Origin: Thermoanaerobaculia bacterium
GTDB lineage: Bacteria > Acidobacteriota > Thermoanaerobaculia > Gp7-AA8
DNA length: 47,252 nucleotides
Assembly (NCBI GenBank): GCA_017883205.1
Contig: JADGNZ010000045.1
Coordinates: forward strand, 1 to 47,252
Reading direction: 5' to 3'
The number at the start of each line of letters is the position of its first letter. The stretch's first letter is position 1. The notes beneath the pieces were generated by a model. That model was not told the origin of the DNA, made no database searches, and was given only the letters and a program-made list of their open reading frames with translations. Of this stretch, positions 2,933 through 45,247 are shown piece after piece. Made by a program: the position numbers and the translations under genes.

Positions 2933-3028
2933 TTCTGCGGTGTTGATGTCCGGATGCGTGCGCACGACACGTCCCGGAAGCACGTGCCTTGCAGAATTGC
3001 CCGGCGGCAAGAAAGGTTCCTCGTACTG

Positions 3029-4552
3029 ATGACGGTTCGACGCACGCGTTTCATCGCGACAGCGCTTCTGCTTTTGTGCTTCCAGGTTCTCACCGCAACC
3101 GGGGCTGACACCGCAAGACGGCGTCGCGGGAAATCGCGGCGGCGGAAGGCTGCACCCGCGGCCCCTGCGGATACGGCCACAGGCTCGACGCTGTCCGAAC
3201 GGCTCACGTCCCTGATGACCGGTTCGGTGGCGCGCAACTCGGACACCAGCCTGCAGGTCGTCGACGTCGAGAGCGGCAACCTCGTCGCCGAGCGCGGTCC
3301 TCGAACGCCGTTGGCGCCGGCCTCGAACATGAAGCTTTTCACGACCGCTGCGGCGATCGATCTGCTCCATCCCGACTTCGCAGTTACGACGACCGTGTAC
3401 ATGCGCGGTATCGTCGATGCCGGCGGCACGCTGACCGGCGACGTCAAGGTGGTCGGCCGAGGCGATCCGACGATCGGCGGGCGCTTCCACGACGGGCATG
3501 CCACGGCAGTCATCGATGAATGGGTTACCGATCTGAAGCGCGCCGGCGTGAAGACGGTCCACGGCAATCTCATTTTCGAGTACGGCTACATGGACACGGA
3601 GTACATCCATCCGAGCTGGCCCGTCAATCAACTGGTCAACTGGTACGAGGCGCCTGTTTCCGCATTCTCGATGCAGGAAAACTGTGTGCAGGTGCGCGTG
3701 ACGCCAACGAAGCCGGGGAAGGCGTGTCTCGTTCAGTTCGAGCCGCCGACGGCGTTTCTCGATCTGGAGACCTCGTGCATTACCGGGCGCGGACTCCCGT
3801 TCATCACGCGCTACCGCAACACGAATAAGATCGTCGTACACGGCGGAACGCCTGCGCGGGCGGGCGTCACCGAGGTCTTCGTCACGGTCGAGAATCCGGT
3901 GCAGTACTTCGCGACCGTCACCGCCGAGACGTTCGTGCGCGACGGCGTCACGGTGCAGGGGCAGGTTGTCGTCACGCCACACGACGACCGGCCGGACTGG
4001 AAAGCGGTGTCGCAACACGCTACGCCGCTCAACGTCGTCGTCTTCGTGATCAATAAGAAGAGTCAGAATCATTACGCCGAGGAGCTGGTGAAGATCATCG
4101 GCGCCGAGACGAAAAAACAGGGGACGTGGGGTGCCGGCACCGGCAGCGTGACCGAGTGGCTCACCGGCAAGCTGACCGTCCCGCCGGAAGAGTTTCACCA
4201 GGCCGACGGCTCCGGGATGTCACGCGACAATCGCGCCTCCGCCAACGCCTTCATTCACCTGCTGCGCTACATGTGGAAGAGCCCGTACCGGGAGGACTTC
4301 GTCAGCTCGCTGCCGTACTCCGGCGATCCTGACGCGAAATTCGGACGCCGCCTGCGCGGCGCGCCATACGCGCGTCAGGTGTACGCGAAGACCGGCTACA
4401 TCGTCGGCGTGGTCGGCCTTTCGGGCTACGTGCGCGGCGCGAGCGGCAAGGTCTACGCGTTCTCGTTCGTCTTCAACAATTACCACGTCGGCGTCTACGC
4501 GGTGTACCAGCTTCAGGACTCGATGCTGAAAGAGATCATTACGCGGGGGTAG
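3029..4552 (+). CDS. dacB: D-alanyl-D-alanine carboxypeptidase/endopeptidase (PBP4, peptidase S13)
   Basis: A 507-residue PBP4-type penicillin-binding protein that trims or cleaves peptide cross-bridges in the periplasm. The start at 3029 puts a basic N-terminus and a hydrophobic signal segment (ATALLLLCFQVL) at the front; an upstream in-frame ATG at 2954 would bury it. The active-site motifs are all present: SNMK with nucleophile Ser99 and Lys102, SGMSRDN at about 395-401, and KTG at 454-456. Length is slightly above E. coli PBP4 (477 with signal). A basic, Arg-rich linker follows the signal peptide. It follows the MBL gene on the same strand with a 96-bp gap. Confidence 0.92.
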   Translation: MTVRRTRFIATALLLLCFQVLTATGADTARRRRGKSRRRKAAPAAPADTATGSTLSERLTSLMTGSVARNSDTSLQVVDVESGNLVAERGPRTPLAPASNMKLFTTAAAIDLLHPDFAVTTTVYMRGIVDAGGTLTGDVKVVGRGDPTIGGRFHDGHATAVIDEWVTDLKRAGVKTVHGNLIFEYGYMDTEYIHPSWPVNQLVNWYEAPVSAFSMQENCVQVRVTPTKPGKACLVQFEPPTAFLDLETSCITGRGLPFITRYRNTNKIVVHGGTPARAGVTEVFVTVENPVQYFATVTAETFVRDGVTVQGQVVVTPHDDRPDWKAVSQHATPLNVVVFVINKKSQNHYAEELVKIIGAETKKQGTWGAGTGSVTEWLTGKLTVPPEEFHQADGSGMSRDNRASANAFIHLLRYMWKSPYREDFVSSLPYSGDPDAKFGRRLRGAPYARQVYAKTGYIVGVVGLSGYVRGASGKVYAFSFVFNNYHVGVYAVYQLQDSMLKEIITRG

Positions 4553-4554
4553 TT

Positions 4555-5089
4555 TTGCGCCGGCCTGGCGGCCGGCGCGTTGTCGGTTGTCGGTTGTCGG
4601 TTGGTCCACGGCTAGTCCGATGGTTAGTCCGATGGTTAGTCCGCATTTCTCACCCTTCTTAGCGACTCCTTTGCATCGAGCGCCTTCTCCCCTCGTGCTT
4701 TTCGAGGGGAGAAGGTGCCGAAGGCGGATGAGGGGTGTCGTGCAAGCGGCAGGCATGAAGTTCCCGCCCGCAACCTTGCCGCGACAGTCCAACGCCCCCT
4801 CCATCCGGCCTTCGGCCACCTTCTCCCCCACTGAGAAGCGTGGGGGAGAAGGCGCTCGATTGAAAGACGCTGCTTGCAATCTCCTGCAAGTGTGAGGAAT
4901 GCAGCTTGGATACGCTTCGCGCGTTGTCAGAAAGAACGCGAGATCGGCTACGATGGCGCGCCGATTGACCCAACCGACATGAATGAACTTCAAGCCGACA
5001 ACGCGCGAAGCGCAATCAACCGACAACCGAGAACGCGCGCAGCGCAATAACCGACAACCGACAACGCGCCGGCCGCCAGGCCGGCGCAA
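4555..5089. repeat. 535-bp nested inverted-repeat element
   Basis: Perfect 39-bp inverted repeats lie at 4555-4593 and 5051-5089. The outer part of each is a GC-rich palindrome (GCCGGCCTGGCGGCCGGC) and the inner part is copies of the heptamer GTTGTCG. Nested inside (about 4673-4862) is a second element built from GCGCCTTCTCCCC and its complement, with matching GAAGGTGCCGAAGGCGGATG and complementary arms. Near 4610-4643 GATGGTTAGTCC is repeated, and at 4985-5060 CCGACAAC units alternate with GCGCGAAGCGCAAT-like spacers. No credible gene lies within. It fills the whole gap between dacB and the TPR gene. Confidence 0.85.
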
Positions 5090-5093
5090 TTCA

Positions 5094-5684
5094 ATGCAAA
5101 AACAAACCCTCATCTTCACCATCTGCGGCTTTCTTCTCGGCCTGACCATCGGTGGTCTGGTCATCGGACCGAAGATTGCGCAGTCGAAGCTCGCTGGCGG
5201 GGCGCCGGTTCCCGAGACAGAAAGCGCCGCTCCGCCCGTGGCGTCTCCGATGGGCGCGGCGGGCGGCAATCCGATGGCCGCTGTTCAGCAACAACTGGCC
5301 ACTCTCAAAGCCGCGATCGAAAAAGATCCGAAGAACTTCGATGCGCTCGCGCAGCTCGGCGACATGTACATGGACGCCGCGAAGTTCCCGCAGGCGATCG
5401 ATTATCTCGAGCGCGCCTTGGCCGTGCATGATGACGCGAACGTCCGCACCGACCTCGGCATCTGCTACAAACAGACGGGCCAGCCGGGAAGTGCTCTGGC
5501 CGAATTCGAGCGCGCCGCTTCGATGGCACCCGATCAGTGGCAGCCTCTTTTCAATCAGGCACTCGTGCTGAACGATCTGCATCGCACCGACGAGGCGCGC
5601 GTCGTCGCGGCAAAGCTGCAGCAGATGAAGCCGAACGATCCTGATGTGCAGAAACTGCTGACTTCGCTCACCGCAAAGCAGTAG
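5094..5684 (+). CDS. Membrane-anchored TPR protein
   Basis: A 196-residue protein. An N-terminal membrane segment (FTICGFLLGLTIGGLVIG, residues 8-25) is followed by a Pro/Ala-rich linker to about residue 60. Three tetratricopeptide-like helical repeats follow at about 65-190 (NFDALAQLGDMYMDAAKF, then NVRTDLGICYKQTGQPGSA, then WQPLFNQALVLNDLHRTDEA). TPRs mediate protein-protein contacts, and the likely location is the periplasmic face of the inner membrane. I start it at ATG 5094, just outside the right arm of the inverted-repeat element, because the longer frame from 4983 would translate repeat DNA. No partner is evident. Confidence 0.82.
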   Translation: MQKQTLIFTICGFLLGLTIGGLVIGPKIAQSKLAGGAPVPETESAAPPVASPMGAAGGNPMAAVQQQLATLKAAIEKDPKNFDALAQLGDMYMDAAKFPQAIDYLERALAVHDDANVRTDLGICYKQTGQPGSALAEFERAASMAPDQWQPLFNQALVLNDLHRTDEARVVAAKLQQMKPNDPDVQKLLTSLTAKQ

Positions 5685-5716
5685 ACGTCGATCGCGAGCG
5701 CGCCGTATCTGCCGGC

Positions 5717-8243
<2,527 letters not shown>

Positions 8244-34260: not shown

Positions 34261-34501
34261 GCCGTGTCACGGCGTACACGGGGCGTGTTGCTGCGTACGC
34301 AGGGCGTGTTGCTGCGTACGCAGGTCGTGTTGACGTGTACACGGGTCGTGTTGACGTGTACACAGGTCGTGTTGATGTGTACACGGGTTGTGTTGATGTG
34401 TACACAGGTCGTGTTGACGTGTGCACAGGTCGTGTTGACGTGTACACGGGCTGTGTTGCTGTGTACACGGGCTGTGTTGCCGTGTACATAGGTTGTGTTG
34501 C
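34261..34501. repeat. 21-bp tandem repeat array, left part
   Basis: Eleven full 21-bp units start at 34261, 34282, 34303 and so on to 34471, then a 10-bp partial unit (34492-34501) ends at the IS21 boundary. Units follow a TCGTGTTGACGTGTACACGG-like pattern; the core CGTGTACACG is a perfect 10-bp palindrome of alternating purines and pyrimidines. The unit length divides by three, so several frames stay open and read like a seven-residue repeat; these are not genes. The array continues at 36952. Confidence 0.95.
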
Positions 34502-34581
34502 TGTCGGCGGCCACTCTAAAATCCCCCCATCCGGACAGTTAAAAATCCCCCCTCCTGGAGCAACGACGAGGGAGGGAGTCC

Positions 34582-36951: not shown

Positions 36952-37067
36952 TGCGTACACAGGCCGTGTAACGGCGTACACGAGCTGTGTAACGGCGTAC
37001 ACGGACCGTGTAACGGCGTACACGGGCTGTGTCGCCGTGTACACGGGCCGTGTCACCACGTACACGG
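36952..37067. repeat. 21-bp tandem repeat array, right part
   Basis: An 11-bp partial unit (TGCGTACACAG, 36952-36962) continues the half unit that ends at 34501. Full units follow at 36963, 36984, 37005, 37026 and 37047; copies beyond 37068 decay. The units here favour GTGTAACGGCGTACACGG, a slightly different sequence type from those on the left, with the same palindromic core position. I see no gene from here to 37178. Confidence 0.93.
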
Positions 37068-37178
37068 GCCGCGTCACCGCGCAAATCGGGAGAGTCACCG
37101 CGCGCATGGGCAGATTCGCGAGCAAGCTGAAGCGCAGTCATCGGCACTCAGTCGCGGATCGTCCGCTCGCGACTTGGG

Positions 37179-38342
37179 TCAGAGAGCATTGTCACGCGGA
37201 GACGCGGAGAGCGCGGAGCTGGTTTCTCCGCGTCCCCCGCGTCTCCGCGTGAAACGGTACCTCTCTCTCCCACGCACCGCATCACGCCTCTCGGGCCGCC
37301 TTCTCCGATCGGCAATCGTCTCCCGCAGGAACTTGAGCAGGGCTCGCTCTTCCTTCGACTTGCCGATGCGGACCACGGGCGAGCCTTTCTGTTTCCTGCG
37401 CAGCATCTCGAACGGTTTGCCTGCCATGTACTCGTCGAGCAGGCGCGGGCAGATGTAGGACGCGCGGCAGACGGCGGGCGTGTTGCCGAGTTGTTCCGAC
37501 GTCGCCTGCACGGCTTGCTTGATTTTGCGCTTGCGCTCGGTTTTGCTCGCTCCCTGTCCCTGCATGGCCAGGGCGATCGAGCAGAGGAGCGTGCCGGCCC
37601 AGGTGCGGAAGTCTTTGGCGGTGAAGTTCGCGCCGATGATCGACTGGATGTACTCGTTGAGGTGCCGGTCCTTGACGCGGCGAACCTTGCCGTTATCGAT
37701 GAAGGCGAAGAGTTTCGGCTCGCGCAGCCGGCGCAGTTGCTCGATCACCGCGGCGACCTCCGCGTCTTCGATGGCGCGCTTCTGCGACTTGCGCCATTTG
37801 CCGACGTAGTCGAACGAGATCATGCTCCCTTCGACCTTGACGTGCTTCCCGTGGATCGTCGTCAGACCGTATGTCGCTTCCGACTTTGCTTCCGACTTCG
37901 CGCTCTTGTCGTTGCCGACGCGGAAAAAGCCCTGATCGATGAGGCGGACGATCGAGGCGAGCACATGCTCTCGATCGAGCTCGGTCCTCTTCAGGTCGGC
38001 GCGCACGCGGCGGCGCAGCGCGGGAAGCACTTCGCCGAATTCGACGACGCGCTTGAACTTCTCTTCTTCCCGTTGCGCGCGGAAACACGGGTGGTAGAGA
38101 TACTGGGTGCGCCCTTTCTTATCGAGGCCCACGGCCTGCAGCGGTGCGGATTCACCGCGAGCGATTCGCACTTCCTGCCACGCCGGCGGAATGCGCAGCT
38201 TGCGGATGCGTGCCAGCGACGTTTCCTCGCCGATCAGAGAGCCTGATGCGTTGCGATAGATGAAGCCGGCTTCTTTGGTTCCCTCGCGCCGGATGCCGTG
38301 ATTATCGAGGTACCAGCGTCTGGGGATGCCCTTTCCCGGCAT
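37179..38342 (-). CDS. DNA topoisomerase IB (poxvirus/bacterial type)
   Basis: A 387-residue type IB topoisomerase, which relaxes supercoils by a transient 3'-phosphotyrosyl link. The N-terminal domain contains ARIRKLRIPPAWQEVRI. The catalytic domain carries Arg in LDREHVL, Lys in KVRRVKDRHLNEY, the KDFRTWAGTLL motif, and nucleophile Tyr296 in CRASYICPRLLDEY (the family usually has SYVHP or SYIHP, so Cys at the His position is unusual). ATG 38342 is preferred; GTG 38387 is possible. The last 25 or so residues (from about GRERYRFTRRR) are translated from the palindromic repeat at 37189-37257 and are unlikely to be functional. Confidence 0.93.
   Translation of the reverse strand: MPGKGIPRRWYLDNHGIRREGTKEAGFIYRNASGSLIGEETSLARIRKLRIPPAWQEVRIARGESAPLQAVGLDKKGRTQYLYHPCFRAQREEEKFKRVVEFGEVLPALRRRVRADLKRTELDREHVLASIVRLIDQGFFRVGNDKSAKSEAKSEATYGLTTIHGKHVKVEGSMISFDYVGKWRKSQKRAIEDAEVAAVIEQLRRLREPKLFAFIDNGKVRRVKDRHLNEYIQSIIGANFTAKDFRTWAGTLLCSIALAMQGQGASKTERKRKIKQAVQATSEQLGNTPAVCRASYICPRLLDEYMAGKPFEMLRRKQKGSPVVRIGKSKEERALLKFLRETIADRRRRPERRDAVRGRERYRFTRRRGGRGETSSALSASPRDNAL
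37189..37257. repeat. Dispersed palindromic element overlapping the topoisomerase gene end
   Basis: TGTCACGCGGAGACGCGGAG faces CCGCGTCTCCGCGTGAAACG with TTTCTCCGCG copies between. It supplies the topoisomerase stop codon and its last 23 or so codons, so the original C-terminus was replaced or extended by insertion. Confidence 0.88.
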
Positions 38343-38400
38343 GATGGGCGCGATTTTGCGAGAATGGTGCCGCTTGGGGGATAGCACTCATGCAAACGTG

Positions 38401-40233
38401 ATGATCAGCAGCGACGCGATCGAGCCGCTCACGCCTCGACAACGGCTCCTCGTCCTCACGCTGGCGATCATCGTTGCCGTGACGCGCTTCCTCGCGGTCT
38501 CGCATTCGATGTGGGATTGGGACGAGGCGCTCTTCGCCACGTCGCTTCATCACTACGATGTTTCGCAGCATCATCCGCACCCTCCCGGCTTTCCCCTCTT
38601 TTTCGCGCTGGCCAAGCTCGCGCGCTTCGTCATTGACGATGACTTTCACGCGTTGCGCGCGATCAGCGTTCTGGCTGCGCTCTTCGTCTTTCCGGCGATG
38701 TTCGCGTTGGCGCGATCGCTCCGCTTTCGCTTCCGAACGTGCCTCATCGCAGCGTTGCTCTTCTCGTTTCTGCCGAACGTCTGGTATTGGGGCGGGACAG
38801 CATTCACCGACGAGCTTGCGATGGTCACGTCGCTGGCCGGCGCGGCGCTGCTCCTTCGCGATGACTGCAAGCGTCGCACGTACCTCGGCGGCTGCGCCTT
38901 CTTCGCGGCGACGATGCTCGTGCGGGCACAGAACGTCCTTCTGGCCTGGCCGTGGATCATCAGTTCGTGGCGCCGGTGGCGCGAGCGACGAGCGCAGGTC
39001 GTCGCCGGAACCGTGCTGATCGTCATTCTCGTCGTGACCGGCTACGGGATTGCGGCGAAGCTCAGCGGCGTCGGCGCGTACATCTCCGCCACGAAGGCGC
39101 ATCAGCGTTACGTCGCGACCGTCGATGGATTGCTGAATCCGGAGCGTCCTCCGATGCGGAATCTGTTCTTCGATTTCGCATTTGATCCATTCCAGTCGTA
39201 TGCGTTGACGTGGGGATCGCGCGCCGTCTCGATTCTGCTGATCGTGTTCATGCTCGTGGCCTTTGCGCGTCCGAAGCGAGCACACCTTCACATCATCCTG
39301 ACGTTCGTGCCGAACTTTCTGCTGGCTTGGTGTTTTCTGAGCGCGACGGGAATCAGCCGGCTCTCGCTCGGGTACATCGCCCTCAATGCGCTCCTCGCCG
39401 CCGACGGAATGGACGTCATCGCGAGCTTCGTGGCGTCGCGCGTGCGTGCGTTTCCGCGCGAGCGGCTGGCGACGGTACTGCAAGTGTTCTTCGCGGCAGT
39501 CGTCATCGGGCGCTACATCTTCTGGGTCTGGCCGGCGCTGGAAGAAGTTCGCACGAATGACTCGCCGCCGGTGATGGCGATGCAATGGATCCGGCAACAC
39601 GTTCCGCGCGGTACGACGATTTATCTGAGCGGTGCACTCGAACCATTTCCCGAATACTTTCTTCCCGACTACACAGTCGTTTCCGTCGACGGGGATTTCG
39701 ATGCATCGCGGGTGGCGCTGCGGACTGGCGCGTATGTCGTGTCCGATGCTCCGAGCAGGTTGGCCAGTGCGGTCAACTTCCAGCGTCCGCACCGGCGTCT
39801 GTGGGCGCTCTTCAATCAGCGCTACTTCGAGACATCCGTCGTCCCGGCCACCGGCTGGATCAAGTTCGGCGATGGCTGGTACAACGAAGAGGATAACGGG
39901 CAGGGGGGTTGGTGGCGATGGATGCGCGGTGAAAGCCACACGCTGCTCGGACCGCTCGGCCGCCCGGCGCAGCTGGCAGTGACCGTCGCGTATCCGGACG
40001 AGCTCGAGCCCGCGCCGGCGGTGGTGATTGCGCTCGACGGCAACGTCATCGACCGTTTCGTCGCTCCTCGGGGAAACATAAAGCACATGTACGCTGTGCA
40101 GTCCCGCTCCGGCGCGCCTGACGAGCTCGTGATCTCCGTTGATCGAACGGTCAACCTTCTCCGCTCGCATCGCGGACCCGATCCCCGCGACCTCGGGCTG
40201 CGCCTTCTTGCGCTCACATGGAAAGCGCGATGA
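38401..40233 (+). CDS. Polytopic membrane glycosyltransferase-like protein (full-length copy)
   Basis: A 610-residue protein with about ten membrane helices in the first 420 residues and a soluble C-terminal domain (about 420-610). The first loop has DWDEALFATSLHHYDV followed by HPHPPGFPLFFALAK, the acidic pair and His/Pro motif of GT-C enzymes related to ArnT/PMT that use lipid-linked sugars. The C-terminal domain includes a beta-rich part (GEPSH-like turns, FGDGWYNEEDNG) that may bind the acceptor. The substrate is not known. ATG 38401 is preferred over 38326. The next gene is a paralogue at about 70% identity by eye. Confidence 0.8.
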   Translation: MISSDAIEPLTPRQRLLVLTLAIIVAVTRFLAVSHSMWDWDEALFATSLHHYDVSQHHPHPPGFPLFFALAKLARFVIDDDFHALRAISVLAALFVFPAMFALARSLRFRFRTCLIAALLFSFLPNVWYWGGTAFTDELAMVTSLAGAALLLRDDCKRRTYLGGCAFFAATMLVRAQNVLLAWPWIISSWRRWRERRAQVVAGTVLIVILVVTGYGIAAKLSGVGAYISATKAHQRYVATVDGLLNPERPPMRNLFFDFAFDPFQSYALTWGSRAVSILLIVFMLVAFARPKRAHLHIILTFVPNFLLAWCFLSATGISRLSLGYIALNALLAADGMDVIASFVASRVRAFPRERLATVLQVFFAAVVIGRYIFWVWPALEEVRTNDSPPVMAMQWIRQHVPRGTTIYLSGALEPFPEYFLPDYTVVSVDGDFDASRVALRTGAYVVSDAPSRLASAVNFQRPHRRLWALFNQRYFETSVVPATGWIKFGDGWYNEEDNGQGGWWRWMRGESHTLLGPLGRPAQLAVTVAYPDELEPAPAVVIALDGNVIDRFVAPRGNIKHMYAVQSRSGAPDELVISVDRTVNLLRSHRGPDPRDLGLRLLALTWKAR

Positions 40234-41705
40234 CGGCGGCGGCGGATTCGGTTCCCGCGCAGGCAGTAGAGCCGCTCACGCATCGGCAACGCCGTATCCT
40301 CCTCGCGCTTGCGATCGCCGTCGCTGCGACGCGTTTCCTGGCGGTTTCTCATTCGATGTGGGACTGGGACGAGGCTCTCTTCGCGTCTGCACTCCAGCAT
40401 TACGACGTCGCGCAGCACCATCCGCATCCGCCGGGCTTTCCGCTGTTCTTTGCGCTGGCGAAGATCGTCCGTCTCATCGTTCACGATGATTTCCATGCTC
40501 TGCGGGCCGTGAGTGTGTTTGCATCGCTGTTTGTCTTTCCCGCGTTTTTCGCCCTCGCGCGCTCGTTGCGCTTCCGCATCCGGACCTGTGCTGTGGGTGC
40601 CACTCTCTTTTGTTTTCTGCCCAACGTCTGGTACTGGGGAGGGACGGGTTTCACCGACGAGCTGGCACTCGTTACCGCGCTCGCCGGTGGCGCGTTGCTG
40701 CTTCGCGAGGATCAACGCCGCCGCTCGTACATCGGCGGCTGTCTTTTTCTCGCTGCGACGATGCTGGTGCGGGCACAGAACGTACTGCTGCTGTGGCCAT
40801 GGATCGAGGCGTCGTGGCGGCGCATACGCGCGAAGCGCGCTTCGGAAGTCATCACCGGCACCGCGCTCATCGTGGTCCTCGTCGTGACCGGATACGGCAT
40901 TGCCGCAAAGCTGACCGGATTCACGGAATTCATCTCCGTCACGAAAGAGCACCAGCGCTACATCGCGACCGTCGATGGGGCGCTCAACCCGGGGCGGATT
41001 CCGATGCGGAATCTCCTGCAGGACTTCCTGTTCGATCCGTTCGAGTCACGCGCCGCTTCGACGGTGTTGTTCGGGTTCGCACTTCTGTCGTTCGCTCGCC
41101 CGAGGCGCGCTCATGCCGTCATTCTGCTCACGTTCCTGCCGAACTTCTTTCTGGCCTGGTTCCTTCTGAGCCCGACCGGTATCAGCCGCCTTTCGCTCGG
41201 CTACATCGCGTTTGACGTGCTTCTGGCGGCCGATGGGATGGATGTCGCGGCGGCGTTTCTGGCTTCACGCATTCGCGCCGTTCCGCGCGAACGTTTCGCG
41301 GCGGCATTGCAGATGCTCTTTGCCGCAGTCGTTATCGGCCGCTATGTGTTCTGGGTATGGCCGGGACTGGAAGAGATCCGGCTGCACGATTCTCCGCCGG
41401 TGCAGGCGATGGGCTGGATCCGGCAGCACATCCCGCGTGGAGCCACGATTCAAGTCAGCAGCGGACTCGATCCGTTCGCGGCGTACTTCCTGCCGGACTA
41501 CAAGATCGTTCCTGAACAGAAGGGGCTCGATCTCTCGAGAGGAGCGGCGCTGAGCGTTGCCTGCATCGTTGCGGATCACACCGATCCTTCTCCGCAGGCA
41601 ATCAACTTCCAGCGGCCGCGCCAGCATCTTTGGGCGTTATTCAACCGCCGCTACTTCGAGGCGTCTGTGGGGGTGTCGGATGTCGGGAGTCGGGTGTCGG
41701 AGTAG
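40230..41705 (+). CDS. Paralogous membrane glycosyltransferase-like protein, C-terminally truncated
   Basis: A 491-residue tandem duplicate of the preceding gene: SHSMWDWDEALFASALQHY, HPHPPGFPLFFALAK, SPTGISRLSLGYIAF and FNRRYFEAS all match it closely. ATG 40230 overlaps the previous stop (ATGA); 40218 is also in frame. The similarity ends at about 41665, where GTCGGGAG-type repeat DNA begins. The last ten residues (VSDVGSRVSE) are translated repeat, and about 130 residues of the soluble C-terminal domain seen in the first copy are missing. The membrane part is complete, so it might still be made, but its acceptor domain is lost. Confidence 0.85.
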   Translation: MTAAADSVPAQAVEPLTHRQRRILLALAIAVAATRFLAVSHSMWDWDEALFASALQHYDVAQHHPHPPGFPLFFALAKIVRLIVHDDFHALRAVSVFASLFVFPAFFALARSLRFRIRTCAVGATLFCFLPNVWYWGGTGFTDELALVTALAGGALLLREDQRRRSYIGGCLFLAATMLVRAQNVLLLWPWIEASWRRIRAKRASEVITGTALIVVLVVTGYGIAAKLTGFTEFISVTKEHQRYIATVDGALNPGRIPMRNLLQDFLFDPFESRAASTVLFGFALLSFARPRRAHAVILLTFLPNFFLAWFLLSPTGISRLSLGYIAFDVLLAADGMDVAAAFLASRIRAVPRERFAAALQMLFAAVVIGRYVFWVWPGLEEIRLHDSPPVQAMGWIRQHIPRGATIQVSSGLDPFAAYFLPDYKIVPEQKGLDLSRGAALSVACIVADHTDPSPQAINFQRPRQHLWALFNRRYFEASVGVSDVGSRVSE

Positions 41706-41822
41706 GGAGTGGGGAGTGGGGAGTGGGGAGTGGGGAGTGGGGACATTGGAGTGCGGGACGCGGGAGCCCGGAAGTCGGAGTGATCATTTCTCCGACCCCC
41801 GACCCCCGAAAACCGACCCCCT
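41677..41822. repeat. GTCGGGAG/GGGAGTG short-tandem repeat with inverted partner
   Basis: GTCGGATGTCGGGAGTCGGG at 41679-41698 is followed by GGGAGTG repeated five times in tandem (about 41705-41740) and then by the complementary CCGACCCCCGACCCCCGA near 41792-41809. It fills the gap before the pseudokinase gene and supplies the stop of the truncated paralogue. Confidence 0.88.
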
Positions 41823-41828
41823 CGACCG

Positions 41829-43688
41829 CTACATCTTGAACGTGATGGACTGCGGCCTCCACGTCTTCACGCGTTTGCCATCTTTCATCGGCGGCGTGAA
41901 TCGCACGGCGCGTATCGCGCGCGTCGCCGCGTCGTTGAAGCCGAAGCGCGCATCGCCGCGCAGGATCTTCACGTCGGTCACGTCGCCCGTTTCGGAGATC
42001 AATGCGGAGAGGATGATCGTCGTTTGTACGCGCTGCTGCGCGGCGAGCGGCGGATAGAACGGACGGATCGCCGAGAGAGGCTCAGGAACCTTATCGAGCT
42101 CGGTGACATCGACCACGTCTCCCTCGTGAATGGTGACGGCCTGCGCCTGGGCTACTGGCGGGACGACTGCCGGCTGGGATTGCGTCAGCGCCGGAGTCTG
42201 CTGAGCGGCCGTTTGCGCCGGCGGCTGCGCTTCCTGACGAGCGGCGACACGGCGCTGATCGAGGGCGGCAGCGGCACCGCGGTCCTCAGGCTGCGACACC
42301 GGCGCCGTCGAGATGACGCTCGCGGTCTGAACGGGCGCGTTCTTGGACTGCTGTTGTTTGAGCTGCTTGTTCATGTCCGACTGCAGCTTCATCATCTCTT
42401 CCTGCATTTTCTGTTCGACCGCTGCCTCGAACGCTTTCTTCTGCGCCGAAGGATCGATCGTCGATGTCGCGGTCGATGCCGGCGCGGCGGCGATGACCGG
42501 CTGCGAGATGATTTTTGGTTTGGAAGGCACCACGGCGGTGCGTACGGCTGGAGGTTGCGGCTTTGTCTTCGGCTTCAGGAAGAAGAACGCTCCCGCGGCC
42601 ACGGCGATGACCGCGGCGGCTGCGATTGCGATCAGCGGCACGCGGCTCTTTGCCTGCGGAATCGTCGAGAACATGTTGTCTGCCGGAGCAGGCGAGGGTG
42701 CCGGCGCGGCGGCGTATGCGGCGACGTTGACCTTCAATTCTTTCTCGATCTCGAGCGGCTCTCCTTCCAGCTCCTTCTTGAGCAGATTGCTGAGATAGAA
42801 AGCGAGATTGAAGGTCGATGCCGAGTAGCTGCCGCCGTGCACAAGAGCGGAGAGGACCTGCTTCATATCGCCGATCGATGCGTACCGGGCATTGGGATCG
42901 ATGGCCAGCGATTTCTCCAGAATCGTGCGGAGATCGTCCGGAAGCGGCTGTCCCGAGAACGTCCGGGCGGCACGGACCGTTTGCGTGAAGGCGCTGGCCG
43001 TTGCGGCGTCGGGCGGTTCGTTGCCGGTGATGAGAAGATAAAGGATGGCTCCGAGCGAGTAGACGTCCGTCGTCTTCGTGATCTCACCCGAGGAGCGGTA
43101 CTCGGCGGGGAAGTAACGGCCCAACTCGGCGGCGACTTTCGAGTCGGCCATCGATGCGACGATTCCTTTGCCGAGCTGTTGACCGGCGACGCGGATCTCT
43201 CCCTCGTCGGTGATCCAGACGAACTGCGGGATGAGCGCTCCGTGACTCAGGCGATTGCCCAGGTAGCGAAGGTCGGCCGTCGTTGCCAGCGATAGTGCGA
43301 TCTTCTCGGCGATGACGATGGCCTGATCGAGCGGCACGGGGTTCGGCGTCGTGCCGGCTTCGCCGCGGGCGCGATCGACGATGTGGCGCAGGGAGCGGCC
43401 TCCCGAATATTCGTGAGCGACGAAAGGGATGCCGTCGATGACGCCGATGGTTTGATCTTTCGCGAATGTCGTTCCGCTGAGAAGAGGCACCAACTGGCTC
43501 GCCTCGGACGCGCTTTGCGTCATCGCCGGACGGTTGCCGCCGCTCATCCGCCGCAGAGCGAGCATCGGACTGAGGGTTGATCCATCGAGGCGGGCAGCGC
43601 GCCAGAGCTCACCGAGCGAATCGGTGTCGAGTTTCTTGAATAGGATGAACGTTCCGAACTGCTCGTACGGACGGTTTTTGGCAGCCAT
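41829..43688 (-). CDS. Pseudokinase-TonB hybrid membrane protein
   Basis: A 619-residue protein. Residues about 10-290 follow a Ser/Thr protein kinase fold (VYSLGAILYLLITGNEPP and TILEKSLAIDPNARYASIGDM are kinase C-lobe landmarks), but catalytic residues are gone: LALRRM replaces the lysine strand, LSHGALIPQFVWI the HRDLKxxN loop, and RVAGQQ the DFG. One membrane helix (IAIAAAAVIAVAAGAFFFL, about 337-355) leads to a Gln/Ala/Pro-rich, partly coiled-coil periplasmic stretch. A TonB-type C-terminal domain ends it (about 540-619, with FYPPLAAQQRVQTTIILSAL and VRFTPPMKDGKRV). It may signal from the cytoplasm to the outer membrane without phosphorylation; function is inferred. Confidence 0.85.
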   Translation of the reverse strand: MAAKNRPYEQFGTFILFKKLDTDSLGELWRAARLDGSTLSPMLALRRMSGGNRPAMTQSASEASQLVPLLSGTTFAKDQTIGVIDGIPFVAHEYSGGRSLRHIVDRARGEAGTTPNPVPLDQAIVIAEKIALSLATTADLRYLGNRLSHGALIPQFVWITDEGEIRVAGQQLGKGIVASMADSKVAAELGRYFPAEYRSSGEITKTTDVYSLGAILYLLITGNEPPDAATASAFTQTVRAARTFSGQPLPDDLRTILEKSLAIDPNARYASIGDMKQVLSALVHGGSYSASTFNLAFYLSNLLKKELEGEPLEIEKELKVNVAAYAAAPAPSPAPADNMFSTIPQAKSRVPLIAIAAAAVIAVAAGAFFFLKPKTKPQPPAVRTAVVPSKPKIISQPVIAAAPASTATSTIDPSAQKKAFEAAVEQKMQEEMMKLQSDMNKQLKQQQSKNAPVQTASVISTAPVSQPEDRGAAAALDQRRVAARQEAQPPAQTAAQQTPALTQSQPAVVPPVAQAQAVTIHEGDVVDVTELDKVPEPLSAIRPFYPPLAAQQRVQTTIILSALISETGDVTDVKILRGDARFGFNDAATRAIRAVRFTPPMKDGKRVKTWRPQSITFKM

Positions 43689-43754: not shown

Positions 43755-44792
43755 TTATTTGGTAGTTTGCGACTGCGCCTGTTGCGCTGCGCGCTGATCG
43801 CGATACCACTGGATCTGGTAGATCTGCACGTTGCGGTCGTGATCCGCCAGGTTCGTGGCGAATGCGTGCGTCCCGTCGTGTTTGGCGACGAAGTAGAGGA
43901 AATCGCTCTTCGCCGGCGCAGCGGCGGCTTGAAGCGACGCCAGCCCCGGATTGGCGATCGGACCAGGCGGCAGGCCGTGGAAACGATAGGTGTTGAACGG
44001 CGAATCGATCTGCAGATCGGCTTTGCGGATGTTTCCGTCCCAGCGGCCGGCGAGCTTGAGGGCGTAGATGACGGTGGGATCGGCGCCGAGGAGCATGTGG
44101 CGATTGATTCGGTTGAGGTAGACCGAGGCCACGAGGGGGCGCTCCTGCGGCATGCGGGCCTCGGTCTCGACGATGGAAGCCAGCGTGACCGTTTTGTGCA
44201 GATCGAGACCGGTGGTGATGTAGCTCATTTCGCCGCCGAAGTGCTTGCGGAAGTTGCTGACCATCGCCGCGATGATTTCATGCGGGGGCGTACCGGGATT
44301 GAACTTGTAGGTGTCGGGGAAGAGGTAGCCCTCGAGCGTTTTCGCATCGGGGGCGATGTCGCGGATCAGTTCGGGATCCGCGGTCAGCTTGTCCCACTCG
44401 GCGTCGCGTCCAAATCCCTCTTGCACGAAGATGTGTGCAGCCGCAAAGCGGTCCAGACCTTCGCGGATGGTCACGCTCTTGGCGATGACATCGCCGCGGA
44501 TCAGTTTGTCCAATACTTCTTCGGCCGTCATCGGCTTCGAAAACTCGTAGATCCCCGCCTTGATCTTGTCGTTGTGCCGGACGATCTTCATGTAAACGAG
44601 AGGAAGGTACTCGTCGCGAATGATCCCTTCGGTCTGCAGGTGCTTGAGGATCGTTGCGGTACGAAGTCCATGGCGCACCTCGACGTCTTTGTGTGGCTCC
44701 GTGTAGCCTCGGAACGGCGAGCGCATCGCTCGGATGAAGAACCAGCCGCCGGCGACGGCCAGGAGGGCGGCGAAGAACCCGATGGTCAACAA
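43755..44792 (-). CDS. mltG: Endolytic murein transglycosylase
   Basis: A 345-residue YceG-type enzyme that cuts nascent glycan strands at the inner membrane and so sets strand length. An N-terminal membrane helix (LTIGFFAALLAVAGGWFFI) is followed by a LysM-like domain (about 40-110) and the YceG catalytic domain. The catalytic Glu is in LASIVETEA, and DSPFNTYRFHGLPPGPIANPG is the diagnostic family block (20-residue core). The start is uncertain: the listed codon is TTG, no in-frame ATG lies between it and the ruvX coding region, and the ends of the two genes nearly touch. Downstream of ruvX on the same strand, as in many bacteria. Confidence 0.93.
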   Translation of the reverse strand: MLTIGFFAALLAVAGGWFFIRAMRSPFRGYTEPHKDVEVRHGLRTATILKHLQTEGIIRDEYLPLVYMKIVRHNDKIKAGIYEFSKPMTAEEVLDKLIRGDVIAKSVTIREGLDRFAAAHIFVQEGFGRDAEWDKLTADPELIRDIAPDAKTLEGYLFPDTYKFNPGTPPHEIIAAMVSNFRKHFGGEMSYITTGLDLHKTVTLASIVETEARMPQERPLVASVYLNRINRHMLLGADPTVIYALKLAGRWDGNIRKADLQIDSPFNTYRFHGLPPGPIANPGLASLQAAAAPAKSDFLYFVAKHDGTHAFATNLADHDRNVQIYQIQWYRDQRAAQQAQSQTTK

Positions 44793-44839: not shown

Positions 44840-45247
44840 CTATGACGTCCTCCGGGCAACGTCGTCGAGCCAGGACTGGAGAATCACTGCCGCGGCATGC
44901 ATGTCGATCTCTCGCTGGGCCTCACGCCGTTTCATCCCATTGTCGCGCAATTGCCGTGAGGCCTCGGCCGTCGTTAGCGCTTCGTCCCAGAGCACGACCA
45001 CTTTGCACGTTTTCTGCCGCAGCCGCTCGGCGAAGTCGCGGAACTTCTGCTCGCCGCTGCTGCTGTTGGGCCGCCGCGGCACGCCGAGCACGATTGTCTC
45101 GGCCTCCAGATCCCTGGCCAGACCGGCCAGCTTTTCGATGACGTCTCCCTCGTTCTTCACGACGGAATGCGGTCTGGCAATCGCGCCGGAGTCGCTGACC
45201 GCCACGCCGATGCGGCGGCCTCCGTAGTCGATGGCGATGATGGACAT
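44840..45247 (-). CDS. ruvX: RuvX/YqgF Holliday-junction resolvase-like nuclease
   Basis: A 135-residue RNase H-fold protein (E. coli YqgF is 138). Motifs: AIDYGGRRIGVAVSD with the first Asp, IVLGVPRRPNSSSGEQ, LWDEALTTAEAS with the conserved Glu, and EIDMHAAAVILQSWLD with the last Asp pair. Members process 16S rRNA ends and are linked to junction resolution. ATG 45247 fits the family start; the much longer antisense frame to 46453 is the shadow of pilT. The 5' end is divergent from pilT, with 54 bp between. Confidence 0.94.
   Translation of the reverse strand: MSIIAIDYGGRRIGVAVSDSGAIARPHSVVKNEGDVIEKLAGLARDLEAETIVLGVPRRPNSSSGEQKFRDFAERLRQKTCKVVVLWDEALTTAEASRQLRDNGMKRREAQREIDMHAAAVILQSWLDDVARRTS

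Follow-up and report, generated by a model that had tools for sequence, protein, structure and literature searches.

A transmembrane pseudokinase with a TonB-type C-terminal domain, conserved in Acidobacteriota and often encoded beside mltG

A family of Acidobacteriota proteins combines a degenerate protein kinase fold with a single membrane helix, a long linker and a TonB C-terminal domain (TonB_C), and its genes frequently lie directly behind the cell-wall gene mltG. The member discussed here is encoded by an open reading frame with an ATG start and exact boundaries on the minus strand of a 47,252-nucleotide stretch of Thermoanaerobaculia DNA (“the window”), which represents a whole contig from a 6.37-Mb genome. 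According to our best explanation, to which we assign a probability of about 0.45, the protein would be an envelope scaffold or receptor that spans the membrane once, has no catalytic activity and works with MltG. The gene and its parts are the following:

41829..43688, minus strand: whole gene, encoding pseudokinase, membrane helix, linker and TonB_C (619 aa)
42837..43667, minus strand: bilobal pseudokinase domain, residues 8-284 (AlphaFold model, VIA fold match)
43551..43553, minus strand: Arg46, replacing the ATP-binding Lys
43218..43244, minus strand: degenerate catalytic loop HGALIPQFV, residues 149-157, in place of HRDxxxxN
43176..43184, minus strand: GQQ, residues 169-171, in place of DFG
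42759..42833, minus strand: juxtamembrane signature GSYSASTFNLAFYLSNLLKKELEGE, residues 286-310 (conserved in distant loci)
42579..42635, minus strand: single membrane helix without His, residues 352-370 (AlphaFold pLDDT 61-74)
42099..42566, minus strand: Ala/Gln/Pro-rich linker, residues 375-530 (composition, model)
42339..42452, minus strand: long helix within the linker, residues 413-450 (AlphaFold pLDDT about 76-92)
41835..42065, minus strand: TonB C-terminal domain, residues 542-618 (Pfam, fold match to 6i97)

A preliminary description of this DNA had proposed a pseudokinase joined by one membrane helix to a TonB-type domain. This observation is confirmed by Pfam profiles, AlphaFold folds and a hydrophobic peak; the interpretation attached to it is partly supported. 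The AlphaFold2 model of the 619-residue protein (input of 75 sequences, i.e., the window protein and 74 stretches; mean pLDDT 83.7) yields both a bilobal kinase fold and a TonB-CTD fold, which the preliminary description had wished to see checked by structure prediction. In the kinase part, pLDDT is mostly 92-98, with one ten-residue block at 87, and the fold matches in VIA those of MST3 (Z 24.2, 264 aligned, rmsd 3.0) and PknB (3orl; Z 23.1, 241 aligned, rmsd 3.1). At the profile level, residues 89-269 score 27.3 bits with Pfam PK_Tyr_Ser-Thr (cut-off 23.1), whereas the Pkinase model remains below its cut-off (19.9 vs. 31.7).

The C-terminal domain scores 57.2 bits with Pfam TonB_C (PF03544; cut-off 24.6) and is modelled with a pLDDT of 96-98 in the whole protein. 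When the last 115 residues are modelled alone (52 sequences), the best match is the TonB-CTD of Pseudomonas aeruginosa TonB bound to FoxA (6i97; Z 10.6, rmsd 1.9 Å, 88 aligned), while TolA matches reach Z 6.6 or less. With a TonB_C profile built from 52 sequences, mostly from the same loci, a match is found in 98 of 102 pseudokinase reading frames; among the remaining four, L048, L105 and L110 run off the sequence end and L053 carries a frame break. The entire architecture of pseudokinase, helix, linker and TonB_C is retained in relatives at 24-30% identity. The nature of the two ends suggests an N-in, C-out topology, with the kinase part in the cytoplasm and the TonB part in the periplasm.

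The kinase domain had been described as having lost the lysine, HRD and DFG motifs and having kept its C-lobe landmarks, and this holds. In the window protein, β-3 reads LALR where VAIK is expected, the catalytic loop (residues 149-156) reads HGALIPQF where HRDxxxxN is expected, with Ala151 at the HRD Asp, and G169-Q-Q occupies the DFG place; Glu196 (APE), Asp208 and Arg268 of the C-lobe are present. These positions were assigned by sequence alignment, including a phmmer alignment to PknB-type kinases, and the alignment recovers neither the Lys nor either of the two Asp residues. Judging from these residues, ordinary phosphotransfer by the window protein would be impossible, in agreement with the design without phosphotransfer that had been foreseen.

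Whether the catalytic residues are always lost, a question raised for a wider survey, can be answered from 102 family rows, obtained from 124 aligned stretches by dropping three without catalytic-loop columns and setting apart 19 with HRD (L080 and L128 are identical among the family rows). The HRD Asp is retained in 0 of the 102 rows and the catalytic-loop Asn in one; the β-3 Lys persists in four (Arg in 79) and the DFG Asp in six. Row L131 has both Lys and DFG Asp and lacks the HRD Asp and the Asn. The C-lobe landmarks are widely kept (APE Glu in 89, Asp208 in 93 and Arg268 in 87 rows). By contrast, the Asn and DFG are retained in all 19 HRD-bearing rows of the same loci, which represent 18 distinct sequences, two of them (L066 1-2358 and L132 8338-9612) being other kinases and not the TonB_C-tailed sister treated below. 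Outside the 102 rows, none of L212, L214, L215 and L218 has an HRD; L218 has a catalytic-loop Asn, like L138. As far as aligned residues can tell, loss of catalysis is a family-wide trait. Separately, Arg is kept at the ATP-site Lys in these many rows although the α-C Glu is mostly lost.

Two assignments to other kinase groups were considered and rejected, namely a PASTA kinase (NF033483; 59.6 bits vs. a curated cut-off of 450) and a defence-system kinase (weak NCBIfam matches to MAD6, 57.1 bits vs. 460, and PglW, 30.1 vs. 990).

Just after the kinase C-lobe, the family carries a juxtamembrane signature with the consensus [ST]TFNxAF..(L/M)xxL[FY]R. Since the best 80 of 122 matching loci were found by the pattern [AP][TS][TS]FNLA[FL][YF][LMV], the motif is conserved in these by construction, and the fair test is therefore provided by 21 loci that were fetched otherwise (and also by L212-L215 and L218). 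In all 21, whose kinase parts share only about 22-31% identity with that of the window, the juxtamembrane helix TTFNLAF is present with small changes. F293, which is not the common residue of active rows, is found in 101 of 102 family rows; hence, the signature is better conserved than the old active site, and it may be a main contact site of the protein; Thr292, beside the membrane, is likewise near-invariant. Further downstream, residues 352-370 form the hydrophobic peak of their region, albeit at the low pLDDT given above. The long Q/A/P-rich stretch noticed behind the membrane helix is likewise found (29 A, 22 Q and 18 P among the 161 residues 375-535); outside its one long helix, the linker is modelled with low pLDDT.

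The family can be regarded as a conserved, broad and apparently old group of Acidobacteriota pseudokinases defined by its architecture. Among the best 80 of 122 pattern matches, the nearest named relatives are metagenome-assembled genomes of Thermoanaerobaculia or Acidobacteriota, and one locus (L099) bears a Deltaproteobacteria label, which is a label only. At a threshold of 1e-20, a pseudokinase match is present in 35 of 40 genomes (the own genome and 39 relatives); the lowest-scoring one, in G038, was read and has dead motifs together with TonB_C. When the phylum was sampled evenly, a 26-row profile matched 49 of 119 genomes at 1e-40; in six of the 49, the match lies solely where the active sister is encoded. 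The alignment A1 comprises the window sequence and 25 of 29 loci (L021, L022, L025 and L032 left out). In one relative (G019; L082 1528-5600), a tandem pair of pseudokinase-TonB_C genes lies behind mltG.

In the window, the pseudokinase gene follows two others on the same strand, with gaps of 47 and 66 bases:

44840..45247, minus strand: ruvX (YqgF), first gene of the cluster (Pfam RuvX, 114.1 bits)
43755..44792, minus strand: mltG (YceG family), upstream cluster gene (Pfam, 275.1 bits)

This arrangement is conserved among the nearer relatives. In the 78 loci with upstream room among the best 80 of 122 pattern matches, the order ruvX-mltG-pseudokinase occurs in 56, ruvX-pseudokinase in 12 and mltG-pseudokinase in four, so that the pseudokinase gene adjoins ruvX and/or mltG in 72 of 78; neither gene is present in five loci, and both lie farther off in one. 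The pseudokinase gene tends to close its cluster: of 57 loci in which the next gene is a clustered one, 49 have that gene on the opposite strand (L053's own second piece left out). In 21 distant loci, neither the window queries nor more divergent queries gave a match to ruvX or mltG; the link is therefore a feature of the nearer relatives rather than of the family as a whole, and the connection with MltG may be secondary. Moreover, ruvX and mltG form a common gene pair, and clustering alone is insufficient for claiming joint action with MltG. In one genus (g19; five genomes; L155-L159, L207 and L208), ruvX and mltG are present and neither the pseudokinase nor its active sister gives a match. 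Between positions 41600 and 45500, no sigma-70-like site was found; terminator-like sites number six, compared with 3.4 (sd 1.8) in shuffled sequence, one of them (44762-44742, minus strand) near the 5' end of the mltG reading frame.

Of the two neighbours named in the preliminary description, mltG stands as part of this conserved cluster, whereas pilT does not. The latter lies on the other strand in the window and beside the pseudokinase gene in only 16 of the 80 relative loci (best 80 of 122), and it was rejected as part of the system. Elsewhere in the window, two adjacent, similar membrane reading frames are located on the plus strand (38326-40233, with a weak PMT match, and 40218-41705), the second of which ends beside a G-rich 7-base tandem repeat (41699-41743); reading frames that look related by eye are clustered downstream of the pseudokinase gene in 12 other loci. 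The window also contains tandem arrays of a 43-base unit (205-514, 7.2 copies) and of 21-base units that are alike by eye (34274-34504 and 36953-37071, with 11 and 5.7 copies).

Based on the architecture and the gene cluster, we infer a scaffold whose steps would be as follows. The pseudokinase and the conserved juxtamembrane helix would bind a partner in the cytoplasm or membrane, which may include a sensing role in the cytoplasm. TonB_C would bind a partner in the periplasm or outer membrane and might do so like TonB, through strand addition; action on outer-membrane transporters, as proposed at the outset, is a candidate role in this respect. The clustering with mltG points to glycan-strand cutting in wall growth, and together with MltG, the protein could set the place or the time of this cutting during growth. 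An active kinase may phosphorylate the pseudokinase or pair with it. The logic of such a scaffold would be analogous to that of MviN or EssB.

The first candidate for such a kinase is a protein with an intact kinase domain and the same tail:

L002 / L150, 6001-8877, contig C11, minus strand: receiver-kinase-TonB_C sister with intact catalytic motifs

This sister (own genome, G000:C11:94350-97190; 959 aa; receiver, kinase, helix, TonB_C) has VAIKK, HRDVSPQN and DFG, and it gives rise to another reading, in which the two proteins, each anchored by a helix and a tail of one kind, form a pair with the pseudokinase as its substrate or allosteric member. In a kinase tree of 77 rows (quick search, some long branches), 38 pseudokinase rows fall on one side of a branch with an SH-aLRT of 100, and the active TonB_C kinases sit between the pseudokinases and the other kinases of the own genome, an arrangement consistent with a single old duplication and a single loss of catalysis. 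The two proteins also tend to occur together. Among the 35 pseudokinase-bearing genomes of the 40 mentioned above, 34 show a strong sister match and one (G011) only an N-terminal fragment, and the five genomes without pseudokinase are also without sister. Outside the class, where pseudokinase and sister beyond the fetched loci were assigned by place and score, 35 of 41 matched genomes have a match at the pseudokinase place, and 33 of these 35 also match the sister.

Several observations weaken this pairing. Both proteins seem to be vertically inherited, and the five double absences all belong to one genus and, hence, probably reflect one loss. Six genomes outside the class have the sister only (no pseudokinase match at 1e-40; HRD and DFG are present in G053 and G086, which were read), and two, G112 and G121, have the pseudokinase and no sister match at 1e-95. 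The sister was found in none of 16 genomes lacking a pseudokinase match (16 of 70 such genomes), which is not independent evidence because the profile used to select these genomes recognises the sister as well. Finally, the two genes lie apart and have different neighbours in the own genome and in the relatives looked at. Taken together, a partnership with the sister is possible, though rather doubtful. In family f30 (L153, L154 and other genomes), the sister appears to stop soon after the kinase domain, without the TonB part, and the pseudokinase retains its TonB_C.

The neighbours of the sister hint at uptake. In the own genome, they include genes for a carboxypeptidase-regulatory outer-membrane barrel and a periplasmic binding protein as well as a Rho-like gene; one relative (L140) has a FecCD permease near the sister. 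A kinase tied by a TonB tail to uptake genes is unusual in itself. A speculative extension is that the dead kinase and its active sister both use their TonB_C tails to bind outer-membrane or periplasmic partners and signal the state of these inward, through their single helices, to the kinase/pseudokinase pair, which would couple outer-membrane uptake to wall growth. Such reverse TonB signalling we consider unlikely; if true, it would constitute a trans-envelope system in which the TonB fold serves as an antenna and not as the arm of a motor.

In another reading, the protein is a TonB energy transducer in which the kinase-fold head is regulatory and ExbB/ExbD supply the drive for outer-membrane transporters. 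This would agree with the TonB-CTD seen by profile and fold, which is nearest to TonB of receptor complexes, and with the own genome, which encodes three ExbB-type proteins and 21 TonB_C matches. In one relative (L143 of G022), the sister gene (3001-6201, minus strand) has an ExbB-type match (7139-7753, plus strand) about 1 kb off, the only such match among the loci searched, controls aside. In TonB, Ser-x3-His in the membrane helix is the signature of ExbB/ExbD coupling, and linkage of tonB to exbB/exbD is common, but not required. Two TonBs of the own genome adjoin ExbB- and ExbD-type reading frames and show, by eye, S-x3-H in their membrane helix, whereas 0 of 75 members of the pseudokinase family have a His in the 21-residue segment of highest hydrophobicity within the helix region. 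Likewise, at 1e-3, own ExbB/ExbD queries matched the control loci but nothing in the window, the 80 relative loci (best 80 of 122) or the 21 distant loci. The missing His in 75 of 75 members and the lack of exbB/exbD nearby render an ordinary ExbBD-driven TonB unlikely, and we regard the motor reading as a whole as improbable.

Some pseudoenzymes, such as SelO or SidJ, use the kinase fold to transfer another group. In the present family, the frequent Arg in place of Lys (79 of 102 rows) and the near-invariant H-G that replaces HRD (H in 95, G in 100 of 102; the third residue is mostly F or A) might be read in this sense; however, acidic and amide residues are not generally retained at the sites of the HRD Asp, the Asn and the DFG Asp, and the pocket would be crowded by bulky side chains, namely Leu or Trp at position 44 in 71 of 102 rows and Phe at position 151 in 60 (the window protein has Ala at both positions), which leaves other chemistry very improbable.

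That the gene is a decaying former kinase without function, as the lost motifs might suggest, is hardly credible and is rejected because of the full-length fold, the spread over many families and a kinase-part dN/dS of 0.13 and 0.14 against the two nearest relatives and of 0.22-0.30 against three further ones, ratios that are rough since dS is about 0.6-1.7. Against the same relatives, and equally rough, dN/dS amounts to 0.11-0.58 for TonB_C, which is less constrained than the kinase part against two of them (0.58 and 0.53), and to 0.16-0.47 for helix and linker. With its design kept across part of the phylum and often beside a cell-wall gene, the protein looks like a real envelope protein and not like a decayed gene.

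The family comes with both a genetic lead, the ruvX-mltG cluster, and a natural control, the active-type sister with the same tail, which occurs in almost the same set of genomes. It raises the questions of whether a TonB-type domain can serve a signalling protein instead of the ExbBD motor and whether a dead kinase controls glycan-strand cutting by MltG in a phylum with little-known wall biology. The design had been put forward as not belonging to a characterised system, and in the open literature, we found no paper joining TonB with a kinase or pseudokinase, or MltG with a pseudokinase.

Among known proteins, MviN is a flippase-type protein, EssB/YukC consists of a cytoplasmic head and one helix, and the PASTA kinases are active enzymes with PASTA repeats outside. 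Bacterial pseudokinases are little studied; a 2025 review distinguishes seven families and cites a published 42-family atlas of bacterial kinases, and its main text contains neither “TonB” nor “Acidobacteri-” (PMC12599244). Once phosphorylated by PknB, the dead kinase domain of MviN (ActPs3 family, Mycobacterium) recruits FhaA and so restrains peptidoglycan synthesis (PMC12599244). The likeness lies in a membrane protein that takes part in this synthesis and whose dead kinase domain recruits and does not phosphorylate; as described there, however, the ActPs3 proteins are from Actinobacteria and show Lsidhpsr in the catalytic loop and VALT, and M. tuberculosis MviN has a carbohydrate-binding domain (PMC12599244). 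A deletion in the activation loop is a hallmark of the ActPs3 group. The window protein instead has one helix, TonB_C and, in its family, HG[FA] for HRD. EssB/YukC of type VII secretion in Firmicutes, a transmembrane pseudokinase that recruits the machine upon dimerisation, differs by its other outer domain and other machine, and no TonB_C is named in the review's account of it (PMC12599244). The GLW pseudokinases of Proteobacteria similarly have a fully dead kinase domain followed by a membrane helix, with GLW for HRD and Leu/Trp for Lys (PMC12599244); membership of the window protein in this group was rejected given its HGA and Arg and the prevailing HGF/HGA of its family.

The PASTA kinases PknB and StkP are the nearest solved sequences by profile (StkP, 1.9e-31) and have a similar kinase fold; unlike these, the window protein is predicted to be inactive and bears a TonB_C tail. 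In streptococci, PASTA kinases control wall growth, and MltG is described as a potential kinase substrate that partners with EloR and DivIVA, which are kinase substrates too (PMC10269899). With TonB, the window protein shares the TonB-CTD fold, the one membrane helix and a Pro-containing linker; it differs by its large kinase-fold head, a helix without His, its cluster with mltG and no exbB/exbD nearby. While transmembrane pseudokinases are of a known kind in bacteria, what is new here is the outer domain, TonB_C, that such a pseudokinase carries.
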